10,820 bases of DNA. Source: Deltaproteobacteria bacterium RBG_13_61_14 (GTDB taxonomy: Bacteria > RBG-13-61-14). Shown in pieces: positions 3,492 to 9,654 of the stretch. Below the pieces are notes generated by a model. That model saw only the letters and a program-made list of their open reading frames with translations. It was not told the DNA's origin and did no database searches. A program made the position numbers and the translations under genes. Numbering within the stretch: position 1 is the stretch's first letter; every line of letters begins with the position of its first letter. The DNA is taken from assembly GCA_001797815.1 (NCBI GenBank), contig MGQK01000107.1, positions 32,173 to 42,992 on the forward strand. Reading direction: 5' to 3'.

Positions 3492-3520
3492 GGACCATGG
3501 CCTCTCTTAAGGAATCATTG

Positions 3521-3847
3521 ATGGGTCGGCCGATTAGGGATGTGATCGTGATTGGTGGTGGACCCGCCGGGTCCATGCTGGCCGCTCAGTTAGCCAAGGC
3601 CGGGGTTCGAGTTATGGTTTTGGACCAGAGTGTTTTTCCCCGGCCCAAGCCCTGCGGGGGCGGGTTATCCGAAAAGGCCGTTCGGCTCCTCGATCCGGCT
3701 CTGGACCAGCAGTTAATTTTTGAAGATCACTGTTCGGAGTTGCGTAGTTCCCGGCGTGGAGAAACTCCGTATCGGCAGTTGCTCTTGAAGGCTCTGACCG
3801 GCGGAATCTTCCGCCAAAGCCCGCATGATCCGCACGCACCGAAATAG
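3521..3847 (+). pseudogene. Truncated geranylgeranyl-reductase-family flavoprotein
   Basis: The first 60-80 residues match the N-terminus of FAD-dependent geranylgeranyl-reductase-family oxidoreductases: a Rossmann motif (VIVIGGGPAGSMLAAQLAKAG), an acidic residue ending the second strand (VMVLD), then the family signature PKPCGGGLS. The frame ends after 108 residues, whereas the family is usually 350-400, so the substrate and catalytic domains are absent. Similarity fades around 3750-3800, close to a palindrome at 3800-3815. The ATG at 3521 has AAGGA seven bases upstream; an earlier in-frame ATG at 3497 has a poorly placed AGGGA. No continuation in another frame is seen before hisA, so a deletion or rearrangement is likelier than a simple frameshift. 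The product is probably non-functional. Confidence 0.75.
3800..3815. repeat. Palindrome at the broken end of the flavoprotein gene
   Basis: GGCGGAATCTTCCGCC is a perfect inverted repeat with 7-bp arms and a 2-nt loop. It lies where the reading frame of the flavoprotein remnant no longer resembles its family, so it may mark or have promoted the breakpoint. No T-run follows on either strand, so it is not a convincing terminator. The remaining convergent gap to hisA (3848-3904) shows nothing recognisable. Confidence 0.45.
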
Positions 3848-6733: not shown

Positions 6734-6779
6734 TTTGCGTCCACGCGAGGGTGGGTTTGCATCCACGCGAGGGCGGGTT
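6727..6779. repeat. 22-bp tandem repeat, 2.4 copies
   Basis: Two 22-bp units (6727-6748 and 6749-6770) differ at one position (GCG against GCA), and a third is cut after nine bases (6771-6779, one mismatch). The first unit starts inside the right arm of the neighbouring hairpin, so tandem copying of part of the hairpin sequence is a simple explanation. The array ends at the MEMO stop codon. Confidence 0.75.
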
Positions 6780-8038
6780 CATTTGACAATCACCGCCGCA
6801 TACGCCACCACGTCGCCGTAATCGCCGGTCACGTCGCCGGAGTTGCGGTAGTCCACCACCTGCGCCGAGGTCGCGCCCAGCTTCTTGGCGGCATAGAGCA
6901 TGACCGTGGCCGGGATGAACCCGCACATGCTGATCTTGTGCTTGAGCACTGTCTCGAACAGCGCCTCCGGGTTCAGCTCCCGCACGCATTGCAGGGCCAG
7001 CTCGTCCTTCTGCTTCGCCGTCTCCGCCGACTGGAAATGGGTCATGTCCGAGCTCGCCACCACCAGGGCCGGCGAGCGGCTCTCCGTGATCGCCGCGGCC
7101 ATCGCCTCCCCCAGCTCCCGGCACTCGCTCAGGCTCACCCGCGAAAGCGAGATCGGCACCAGCTTGAAGCCCGGCCGCACCTGCTGCAAGAACGGCAGCT
7201 GCACCTCCAGCGAATGCTCCTGGCTGTGCGCCCAGTGGTCCTCCTTGACCAGGTGGCACAGCTTCTTGATCCGGCTGGCCAGCTTCGCGTCCAGCGCCAC
7301 CTCGCCGGTCGGCATCTGCCAGGAGCCTTCGGACATGATCGCCACGTCCTCCCCCAGGCCCCGGTGGTTGGGGCAGAGCACCACCACCGTGGCCGGCACC
7401 TCGACCCGGCTGTAAACGATCCCCGCCCCTTTGCCGGAATAAATATACCCGGCATGCGGCGCGATGATGCCCAGCGCTTTCTCCCGGTCGGCCGCGGGCT
7501 CCATGAAGCTCGCCACCATCTGGGCCGGCGAGCGGCTCTCCGTGATCGCCGCGGCCATCGCCTCCCCCAGCTCCCGGCACTCGCTCAGGCTCACCCGCGA
7601 AAGCGAGATCGGCACCAGCTTGAAGCCCGGCCGCACCTGCTGCAAGAACGGCAGCTGCACCTCCAGCGAATGCTCCTGGCTGTGCGCCCAGTGGTCCTCC
7701 TTGACCAGGTGGCACAGCTTCTTGATCCGGCTGGCCAGCTTCGCGTCCAGCGCCACCTCGCCGGTCGGCATCTGCCAGGAGCCTTCGGACATGATCGCCA
7801 CGTCCTCCCCCAGGCCCCGGTGGTTGGGGCAGAGCACCACCACCGTGGCCGGCACCTCGACCCGGCTGTAAACGATCCCCGCCCCTTTGCCGGAATAAAT
7901 ATACCCGGCATGCGGCGCGATGATGCCCAGCGCTTTCTCCCGGTCGGCCGCGGGCTCCATGAAGCTCGCCACCATCTTTTCGAGCTCGGCCCGCGCCCGC
8001 GGATAAAACTGTCCGGCCACGGCTGGTTTTCGGATCAT
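6779..8038 (-). CDS. MEMO-family protein with duplicated N-terminal half
   Basis: Member of the MEMO family (AmmeMemoRadiSam system protein B), related in fold to LigB-type extradiol dioxygenases; the bacterial role is unsettled. The product is 419 residues; removing one 152-residue repeat leaves 267, the normal family length. The repeat spans residues 21-172 and 173-324. Each copy has APHAGYIYSG (His43/His195), CPNHRG (His73/His225) and EHSLEVQLPF. The C-terminal SSDMTHF (Asp331, His334) and MCGF (Cys372) occur once. A complete active-site set therefore exists only for the second copy plus the C-terminal part. The ATG at 8038 has an excellent AGGAGG (8046-8051); an in-frame GTG at 8044 sits too close to it. 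No AMMECR1 or AmmeMemoRadiSam radical SAM gene is visible. hisB lies downstream on the same strand. Confidence 0.92.
   Translation of the reverse strand: MIRKPAVAGQFYPRARAELEKMVASFMEPAADREKALGIIAPHAGYIYSGKGAGIVYSRVEVPATVVVLCPNHRGLGEDVAIMSEGSWQMPTGEVALDAKLASRIKKLCHLVKEDHWAHSQEHSLEVQLPFLQQVRPGFKLVPISLSRVSLSECRELGEAMAAAITESRSPAQMVASFMEPAADREKALGIIAPHAGYIYSGKGAGIVYSRVEVPATVVVLCPNHRGLGEDVAIMSEGSWQMPTGEVALDAKLASRIKKLCHLVKEDHWAHSQEHSLEVQLPFLQQVRPGFKLVPISLSRVSLSECRELGEAMAAAITESRSPALVVASSDMTHFQSAETAKQKDELALQCVRELNPEALFETVLKHKISMCGFIPATVMLYAAKKLGATSAQVVDYRNSGDVTGDYGDVVAYAAVIVK
7066..7977. repeat. 456-bp tandem duplication with no mismatch seen
   Basis: Bases 7066-7521 and 7522-7977 look identical throughout when compared by eye. 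The unit is 456 bp, exactly 152 codons, so the frame is kept. A 12-bp sequence, AGCTCGCCACCA, occurs at 7051-7062, 7507-7518 and 7963-7974, just beside each junction. Unequal exchange at this short homology is a likely origin. The absence of divergence means the event is very recent or is an assembly error. Confidence 0.95.
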
Positions 8039-8118
8039 GGCCACACCTCCTGGCAGTCGAGGTTAGAAGACCGGCATCCCTCCCCGCTTTTACCAACTCC
8101 TTCGCTTCCGCAGATCCC

Positions 8119-8147: not shown

Positions 8148-8169
8148 GCCGCCGGAAAAAGACTACCTT
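8141..8169 (+). promoter_or_regulatory. Predicted promoter of the TPP riboswitch transcript
   Basis: A perfect TTGACA (8141-8146), a 17-bp spacer and TACCTT (8164-8169). The expected transcription start near 8176 falls exactly at the first bases of the riboswitch P1 stem, which supports the call. Confidence 0.6.
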
Positions 8170-8170
8170 G

Positions 8171-8264
8171 AACTGGCTAGGGGTGGCCGCCAGGCCTGAG
8201 AGTTCGCTCGAACAACCCTTGGAACCTGATCCGGGTCATGCCGGCGGAGGGAAGCAAGCGTTGC
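8171..8264 (+). promoter_or_regulatory. TPP riboswitch (THI element)
   Basis: All the conserved aptamer pieces are present in order: GGGGTG (8180-8185), the thiamine-sensing CTGAGA (8196-8201), ACCC closing P2 (8215-8218), AACCTGATC (8223-8231), a P4/P5 hairpin with CCGG arms, and GGGAAGC closing P1 (8249-8255). A GTTC/GAAC hairpin lies between CTGAGA and ACCC. It is followed at once by an intrinsic terminator and then the start of the HydG-type gene. TPP binding should therefore end transcription early. The bases 8187-8194 are perfectly complementary to the 5' arm of the terminator, giving a simple anti-terminator. Confidence 0.96.
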
Positions 8265-8270
8265 AAGAAA

Positions 8271-8304
8271 AGGACCTGGCGGGAACACCCGCAGGTCTTT
8301 TTTT
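8271..8304 (+). terminator. Riboswitch-controlled intrinsic terminator
   Basis: GACCT-G-GCGGG (8273-8283) pairs with CCCGCAGGTC (8288-8297) around the loop AACA, with one bulged G, and is followed by seven T residues (8298-8304). The AGG in the 3' arm (8293-8295) is also the only plausible ribosome-binding site for the ATG at 8305. Forming the terminator would thus both stop transcription and hide the translation signal. Confidence 0.9.
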
Positions 8305-9654
8305 ATGATGTTCGATCTGCAATACCTCCGGCGGCTCACGGAAACCGCGGCGCCGGCCAAGAACCTGGCTGAGGTCCTGGCCAAGGCCGAGGCTCTGGAA
8401 AAGCTTTCCCTGGAAGAGGTCGCTTCGCTCCTGGCCGTCACCGATGCGGAAGACCTCGCCCAAATCCGGCAAAGCGGCTTTCGGGTCAAACAGGAGGTGT
8501 TCGGCCCGCGGGTGGTGCTGTTCGCCCCGCTCTACCTTTCCAACCGCTGCATCAACAACTGCCTCTACTGCGGCTTCCGCGCCGGCAACCGCGAGCGCCA
8601 GACCCGGACGCTCTCGCCCGAGGAAGCCGCGGCCGAGGCCGGACACCTCGCCCAACTCGGCTATCAGCGGCTCCTGCTCGTGACCTCCGAGCACCCGGAC
8701 ACCGGCGCTGATTACCTCGAAGCCGTGGTCCGCGCGATCTACGAGCGCGCGGCCATCCGCATCCTCCACCTCAACGCCCCGCCCATGTCGCAGTCGAATC
8801 TTCGCCGGCTGAAGGAGGCCGGGCTCGGGGTTTACCAGGTCTTCCAGGAAACCTACGATCCCGAATGCTACCGCGAGCTCCATCCCTCCGGGCCCAAGGC
8901 GGATTTCAGTCGCCGGCTTGCGGTCATGGACGACGCCATCGCCGCCGGATTTGACGACGTGGGGCTGGGCGTGCTCCTCGGGCTCCACCACCACCGCTTC
9001 GAGGCCCTGGCTACGGTCGCTCACAGCTACTACCTGCGCGATCGCTATCACTTGAACCCCCACACCCTCTCGGTGCCCCGGCTCCGGCCGGCTGAAGGCT
9101 CGCCCATCACTACGCCGCCGGCGCCGGTCAGCGACCCGGAGTTCCTGAAGATCGTGGCGCTCTATCGCCTGGCCGTGCCCACCGCCGGCGTGGTGGTCAC
9201 CACCCGCGAGAGCAAAGAGACGCGGGAGCAAGCGCTTGGGGCCGGGGCTTCACAGATCAGCGCCGGCTCGCGCACCGACCCCGGCGGCTACTCGGAGGAA
9301 GGCAAGACCAGCCAGTTCGAGGTGGAAGACCGCCGCACCCTGGAAGAGGTGATCCTGGACCTGGTGGCCGCCGGGCATTTGCCCAGCCTGTGCACCGCCT
9401 GCTACCGCTCCGGCCGCACCGGCGTCCGCTTTGCCGAGATGGCCGGCGCCGGCGAGATCGCGGCCTTCTGCCAATCCAACGCCATCCTCACCCTGGCTGA
9501 ATACCTGGCCGCGCATTCCAGCGACGGCCGCTTTGCTCAGGCGGAAGCCATGCTCCAGCATCTGCTGGAAGAGATCCCGGACCAAAAGCTCCGCCAAAGC
9601 CTGGCCCGGAAACTGGAAGAGGCCCAAGCCGGGGCCCGCGATCTTCATTATTAG
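8305..9654 (+). CDS. hydG: HydG-type radical SAM tyrosine lyase under TPP riboswitch control
   Basis: Member of the ThiH/HydG family, which cleaves tyrosine with SAM. HydG converts tyrosine to p-cresol, CO and cyanide for the [FeFe]-hydrogenase H-cluster; ThiH makes dehydroglycine for the thiamine thiazole. The 449-residue product has the SAM cluster motif at Cys82, Cys86 and Cys89 (CINNCLYCGF), the family motifs QETYDPECY and ELHPSGPKADF, then PHTLSVPRLRPAEGS and QISAGSRTDPGGY. The C-terminal CTACYRSGRTG supplies Cys363 and Cys366, with Cys389 22 residues further on: the CX2CX22C auxiliary-cluster motif of HydG, which ThiH lacks. Length also fits HydG (about 470) better than ThiH (about 370). 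Yet the gene lies directly behind a TPP riboswitch, which points to thiamine. ATG at 8305 or 8308. Family is certain; HydG over ThiH is well supported by sequence but open by context. Confidence 0.85.
   Translation: MMFDLQYLRRLTETAAPAKNLAEVLAKAEALEKLSLEEVASLLAVTDAEDLAQIRQSGFRVKQEVFGPRVVLFAPLYLSNRCINNCLYCGFRAGNRERQTRTLSPEEAAAEAGHLAQLGYQRLLLVTSEHPDTGADYLEAVVRAIYERAAIRILHLNAPPMSQSNLRRLKEAGLGVYQVFQETYDPECYRELHPSGPKADFSRRLAVMDDAIAAGFDDVGLGVLLGLHHHRFEALATVAHSYYLRDRYHLNPHTLSVPRLRPAEGSPITTPPAPVSDPEFLKIVALYRLAVPTAGVVVTTRESKETREQALGAGASQISAGSRTDPGGYSEEGKTSQFEVEDRRTLEEVILDLVAAGHLPSLCTACYRSGRTGVRFAEMAGAGEIAAFCQSNAILTLAEYLAAHSSDGRFAQAEAMLQHLLEEIPDQKLRQSLARKLEEAQAGARDLHY

Follow-up and report, generated by a model that had tools for sequence, protein, structure and literature searches.

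What is a gene for a HydG-family enzyme doing directly behind a TPP riboswitch? The HydG gene is used as a marker for [FeFe]-hydrogenase. A gene of this kind lies in a 10,820-nucleotide stretch of DNA from Deltaproteobacteria bacterium RBG_13_61_14, which is referred to here as the window. An earlier, sequence-only reading of this stretch had offered two answers: either a HydG-like protein has been recruited, or retained, as the tyrosine lyase for thiazole formation, or hydrogenase maturation is tied to thiamine status. The evidence assembled below strongly supports the former.

Riboswitch, terminator and enzyme in the window

The features of the locus are as follows.

8169-8269, + strand: TPP riboswitch aptamer (Rfam RF00059; cmscan 69.6 bits, full model)
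8187-8194, + strand: predicted antiterminator half-site CCGCCAGG, inside the aptamer and complementary to 8275-8282 (CCTGGCGG)
8272-8304, + strand: intrinsic terminator hairpin and U7 tract (from fold energy and sequence)
8305-9654, + strand: HydG-family radical SAM tyrosine lyase of the thiamine-linked group, 449 aa (from a TIGR03955 score of 397 bits, group, signature and genomic context)
8548-8571, + strand: radical-SAM motif CX3CX2C (Cys82, Cys86, Cys89; from alignment), invariant in every sequence compared
9061-9063, + strand: His253, the equivalent of His265 in T. italicus HydG (from alignment)
9391-9471, + strand: C-terminal auxiliary-cluster motif CX2CX22C (Cys363, Cys366, Cys389; from alignment)

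The aptamer exceeds the gathering score of its Rfam family (54.3; E 2e-12). It is the sole TPP riboswitch detected in the source genome (4.74 Mb, 95% complete), and the hydG-like gene is the only gene found there to be under predicted TPP control. The aptamer is followed by a GC-rich hairpin at about 8272-8297, a U7 tract at 8298-8304 and the ATG at 8305; the predicted folding energy of 8263-8307 is -24.0 kcal/mol. The sequence-only reading had called both aptamer and terminator clear, and they are, although the stretch that it marked begins at 8171, two bases off the aptamer's start.

The half-site is a perfect 8-bp complement of 8275-8282. In minimum-free-energy folds of transcripts ending at 8280, 8288, 8292 or 8296, CCGCCAGG (8187-8194) pairs with CCUGGCGG (8275-8282), which is the 5' arm of the terminator, and this pairing breaks the predicted aptamer. 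Among predicted folds of the leader, those with a full-length terminator favor the terminator together with the aptamer-side fold. As modeled, the anatomy is that of a standard TPP-off transcription switch. At low TPP, the nascent leader would form the antiterminator and the gene would be read; a TPP-bound aptamer would block the antiterminator, whereupon the terminator would form and transcription would stop. An AGG in the 3' arm of the terminator, 9 nt upstream of the ATG, may be the Shine-Dalgarno sequence.

The protein passes the NCBI equivalog model for HydG (TIGR03955; 397.4 bits, cut-off 312) and fails the NCBI model for ThiH (TIGR02351; 292.6 bits, cut-off 380), and four relatives do likewise. 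Its nearest solved relatives are the HydG proteins of T. italicus and C. hydrogenoformans, followed by ThiH. An AlphaFold model (mean pLDDT 87) can be superposed on HydG (4wcx) from end to end (455 columns, TM 0.95), whereas with ThiH (7pd1) the core alone aligns (TM 0.72). The residues typical of tyrosine lyases are retained, namely Arg301 and Arg307, with Ser or nearly always Ser at positions 316 and 319. His253 corresponds to His265 of T. italicus HydG, which we take to be a ligand of the dangler iron; the column holds His in 40/40 proteins of the thiamine-linked group and in 78/78 hydrogenase-type (Hyd-type) sequences, but not in four ThiH proteins. The numbering offset of 14 in this alignment was fixed by Phe81 of the T. 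italicus enzyme (PMC9046217). Cys363, Cys366, Cys389 and His253 are all retained in the same 40 proteins. Thus, the assignment to the HydG rather than the ThiH type, made previously from the CX2CX22C motif, is upheld. A ThiH protein with an accidental CX2CX22C motif is ruled out by the model scores, the tree, the full C-terminal domain and the fold match.

The gene downstream matches a model for ADP-forming acyl-CoA synthetase, as proposed, but nothing was found to link it to the hydG-like gene or to PFOR. Elsewhere in the window, a nearly perfect direct duplication of 456 bp (7051-7350 and 7507-7806, 99% identical) lies within a MEMO1-like reading frame (6779-8044, - strand); it arose either by recent in-frame duplication or as an artefact of assembly. 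A 116-aa reading frame (3497-3847, + strand) resembles geranylgeranyl reductase-type flavoproteins in their initial part only and looks like a truncated gene or a frameshift.

Relatives and their gene contexts

The source genome encodes a second HydG homologue, on contig C28, which is 48% identical to the window protein. It is of the canonical type (533 bits with TIGR03955), adjoins genes for aspartate ammonia-lyase, HydE, HydF (571 bits) and [FeFe]-hydrogenase (344 bits), and has no TPP riboswitch. The genes thiG (381 bits), thiE and thiC lie together on contig C113, where no TPP riboswitch was found, so the window gene does not adjoin thiG. Because a canonical hydG stands beside hydA, hydE and hydF, and the thi genes are separate on C113, the window gene is a second, spare paralogue of the HydG type. 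No ThiH over the cut-off was found in this genome, in which the only strong matches to the ThiH model are the two HydG proteins. The sequence-only reading had named a separate thiH plus a complete hydEFG set elsewhere as a finding that would speak against it; the hyd set is present, but ThiH is absent.

The closest 80 loci in a species-representative collection split in two. A TPP riboswitch lies directly upstream of the gene at nine of them, eight detected with Rfam (L008, L009, L010, L011, L013, L014, L016 and L017) and one, L012, with a model built from the aptamers of riboswitch-bearing loci (46.9 bits). The sequence of L007 starts 7 bases before its gene, which precludes judging this point, and none of the remaining loci exceeds 13.7 bits with the aptamer-built model. 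No TPP riboswitch was found at the hydrogenase-type loci searched. In most genomes of this set, the order is TPP riboswitch, hydG-like gene, thiS, thiG, lgt in some cases, thiE and thiC; the operons of L010 and L017 are interrupted by contig ends. ThiG is present in the source genome and in all ten relatives whose genomes were checked (G001-G010). In these ten relatives, neither HydF nor ThiH was found over its cut-off, nor was the [FeFe]-hydrogenase large subunit HydA, and no ThiO over the cut-off was found in the ten or in the source genome.

For a test on genomes picked without regard to similarity, a profile of the eleven proteins of the first set (the ten linked to a riboswitch and that of L007) was run on 198 genomes each of the phyla of G003 and G006. 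The G003 phylum gave 17 matches of at least 652 bits, with the next match at 559. The riboswitch is present at 15 of the 17, and 16 adjoin thiG, the exception lying at the end of a contig; three lower-scoring controls adjoin hydE or aspA and have no riboswitch. In the G006 phylum, 17 matches that scored 616 bits or more were examined; 11 have the TPP riboswitch and thiG, and 6 lack the riboswitch and stand beside a ThiF/MoeB-family gene, whereas three lower matches are fused to or adjacent to HydE. The six loci beside a ThiF/MoeB-family gene rather than thiG are L190, L193, L194, L195, L197 and L199; at L199, the residue that matches ThiH Glu158 is likewise Glu.

Taken together, 30 of the 39 relatives have the TPP riboswitch, which confirms that the riboswitch-hydG arrangement is shared, and thiG is adjacent in 32/39, where thiS and thiG come first after the hydG-like gene and thiE and thiC after them, and a ThiF-like gene in 6/39. 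With the window gene included (n = 40), the counts are 31, 32 and 6, and each member bears at least one of these marks. Retention in 31/40 members rules out a chance match to the riboswitch model. Of the 29 genomes added by the phylum samples, 0/29 have ThiH and 0/29 have HydF over the cut-off. In total, ThiH over the cut-off was found in 0/40 genomes of the group and HydF in 0/39 relatives' genomes, absences to be read with the fact that these are mostly MAGs of undisclosed completeness. Since few genomes of these phyla have ThiH at all (1/29 comparison genomes), its absence is weak evidence by itself. The co-occurrence with HydE, HydF and [FeFe]-hydrogenase expected of HydG as a maturase is not seen in the relatives (HydF 0/39, HydA 0/10).

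Four residues distinguish the group. Ile153, His155, Val176 and Leu362 (window numbering) are fixed or nearly so in its 40 members, and the same columns hold Arg, Asn, Thr and Phe in 78/78 Hyd-type sequences; the window protein thus lacks the residues fixed around the second site of Hyd-type HydG. Among the examined matches from the two samples of 198 genomes, this signature tells loci in thiamine context apart from those in hydE/aspA context with zero exceptions. The AlphaFold model puts the signature residues where strands 153-157 and 176-178 begin and immediately past strand 359-361. This is the modeled lower barrel end, towards which dehydroglycine is believed to move in HydG as well as in ThiH (PMC9046217). 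Glu133 of T. italicus HydG (PMC9046217) was dropped as a marker because its column is Val in 68/75 Hyd-type sequences.

In a tree of the first set, the ten riboswitch-linked proteins and that of L007 group at 97/92, and in a larger tree the 40 thiamine-type members form one group (SH-aLRT 87). A single clade of Hyd-type HydG receives an SH-aLRT of 5, and positions of the thiamine group as sister to the Hyd-type proteins or nested among them both fit. ThiH sequences are set apart at 100/100 and the window protein has the cluster domain, which places it outside the ThiH family; a position firmly among ThiH with loss of the dangler-iron site, the other outcome that the sequence-only reading had said would count against it, is not what the tree and the retained Cys3/His ligands show. 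Loss of that site is likewise ruled out as an explanation, given that the ligands are retained in all members.

The surveyed loci include several unusual hydrogenase-type arrangements. A HypC-HydE fusion stands beside Hyd-type HydG at L159 (G010, contig C130), L030, L020, L019 and L200, and at L159, L030 and L020 these genes adjoin genes for [NiFe]-hydrogenase subunits. L159 also has a HycI-type protease, and L030 a similar-looking reading frame. HydF over the cut-off is absent in G010, G229, G266 and G281, and [FeFe]-hydrogenase HydA is absent in G010. At these fusion loci, HydE and HydG may supply Fe-CO-CN to [NiFe]-hydrogenase. In L202, HypC, two radical SAM stretches and two BATS stretches are united in a single protein of 943 aa; the 922-aa reading frame of L201 is similar. 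At L112 (G012, C354:4358-5323), roughly 0.6 kb away from two genes that resemble [FeFe]-hydrogenase, lies a HydG homologue that has diverged strongly (35% identity, long branch) and whose C-terminal Cys pattern is altered.

Proposed role and alternatives

Because the gene is controlled by a B1 riboswitch and its relatives lie in B1 operons in dozens of cases, a gene that would be labeled hydG very probably makes the thiazole precursor. The recruitment proposal draws on the thi operons, the conserved riboswitch and a separate group with its own signature, and gains further support from the lack of ThiH or HydF over the cut-off in the relatives' genomes. With riboswitch, family, operon context, signature and the absences of ThiH, HydF and HydA as the observed basis, we infer an activity, a fate of dehydroglycine, a switch direction and a role for the retained site. 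The window gene very likely encodes a HydG-family tyrosine lyase that does the job of ThiH and delivers dehydroglycine to ThiG. With SAM and its N-terminal [4Fe-4S] cluster, the enzyme would convert L-tyrosine to p-cresol and dehydroglycine, and the latter would pass to ThiG (encoded on C113), to be joined with DXP and ThiS-thiocarboxylate to yield thiazole phosphate. The altered surroundings of the auxiliary site lead us to expect a loss of dehydroglycine breakdown to CO and cyanide: with Ile153 in place of Arg, His155 in place of Asn, Val176 in place of Thr and Leu362 in place of Phe, the remodeled lower barrel presumably releases dehydroglycine instead. In a thiamine pathway, making CO and cyanide from it would be wasteful and toxic.

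The retention of C363, C366, C389 and H253 counts against this scheme, as it would be unexpected in an enzyme that only releases dehydroglycine. The site probably continues to bind a cluster, which might be structural, might form a docking surface for ThiG or might have a new chemical role. It is possible, although doubtful, that an auxiliary [4Fe-4S]-Fe(His)(Cys) site works in thiazole synthesis, for example by holding or activating dehydroglycine, or a sulfur/cysteine ligand, before ThiG. If so, a thiamine enzyme would carry the second metal site of HydG, and it might represent the ancestral state or an intermediate between ThiH and HydG.

The same retained ligands, within a complete HydG architecture, could be taken to mean that the window protein is a true HydG that makes CO and cyanide for [FeFe]-hydrogenase and whose expression follows thiamine status; the source genome does have hydA, hydE and hydF, and the window gene is not beside thiG. 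However, a canonical HydG without a TPP riboswitch already occupies that hyd cluster, HydF is missing in 39/39 relatives' genomes and HydA in the 10/10 checked, genes of the group are located in thi operons, and the second-site surroundings are unlike those of all 78 Hyd-type sequences. We consider this reading highly improbable, with a slight probability left for a role in hydrogenase maturation in the source genome alone, and hydrogenase maturation under TPP control, as once proposed for this locus, is rejected as the explanation. The invariance of Cys3/His (40/40), although the relatives lack HydF, and HydA where checked, might instead indicate an enzyme with two functions, which provides dehydroglycine for thiazole and also uses the auxiliary site to make Fe-CO-CN, or CO and cyanide, for some iron enzyme. 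This is improbable too, as no candidate acceptor enzyme was seen adjacent to the gene and the lower-barrel residues fixed in hydrogenase-type HydG are replaced. Substitutions in an active-site strand (His155 lies two residues before Asn157) raise the further prospect of a lyase with another substrate or product that serves a different thi-operon step. There is very little to be expected of that prospect: the tyrosine-lyase residues are retained (Arg301 and Arg307, with 316 and 319 as above), and ThiG needs dehydroglycine in genomes where ThiH or ThiO over the cut-off was not found.

Comparison with known systems

ThiO is the aerobic source of dehydroglycine. This glycine oxidase and the window enzyme share a proposed product, glycine imine, but ThiO is an unrelated flavoenzyme, and none over the cut-off occurs in the source genome or in G001-G010. 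That ThiH or ThiO works with ThiG in making thiazole is textbook knowledge (PMC4403557), and Geobacter genomes have been described in which thiH is missing and the THI element is present (PMC545781, PMC3543383). Our search of open-licence papers found no description of a HydG-family protein in a thiamine role, and an earlier description elsewhere is possible. Where the ThiS-ThiG pathway is otherwise standard but ThiH and ThiO are missing, a thiamine-type HydG would supply their step.

With ThiH (2-iminoacetate synthase; TIGR02351; T. carboxydivorans 7PD1), the group shares the radical SAM tyrosine lyase core, the tyrosine-binding residues, the thiS-thiG neighborhood and TPP control. The window protein differs in its ThiH-model score (293 versus the required 380 bits), in having a C-terminal cluster domain of ~90 residues and His253, both missing in ThiH, and in an Asn where ThiH has Glu158.

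With HydG (TIGR03955; T. italicus 4WCX, C. hydrogenoformans 4RTB), it shares the full length, the CX2CX22C C-terminal domain, the His265 equivalent, the Phe channel residues (73 and 180), Asn157 and the fold (TM 0.95). The thiamine-linked group differs from HydG in its thi operons and TPP control, in relatives without HydF (and without HydA where checked), in strand 3 (Arg-x-Asn to Ile-x-His), in Thr176 to Val and Phe362 to Leu, in the loss of Met377 and in forming a group of its own. Because its members pass the NCBI HydG model and yet sit in B1 operons of bacteria without HydF, and without [FeFe]-hydrogenase where checked, annotation based on HydG, and H2 metabolism deduced from it, will be wrong for this group. 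These proteins constitute a natural experiment on HydG chemistry, in which the metal ligands of the CO/CN-forming site are retained and the residues that surround them are swapped.
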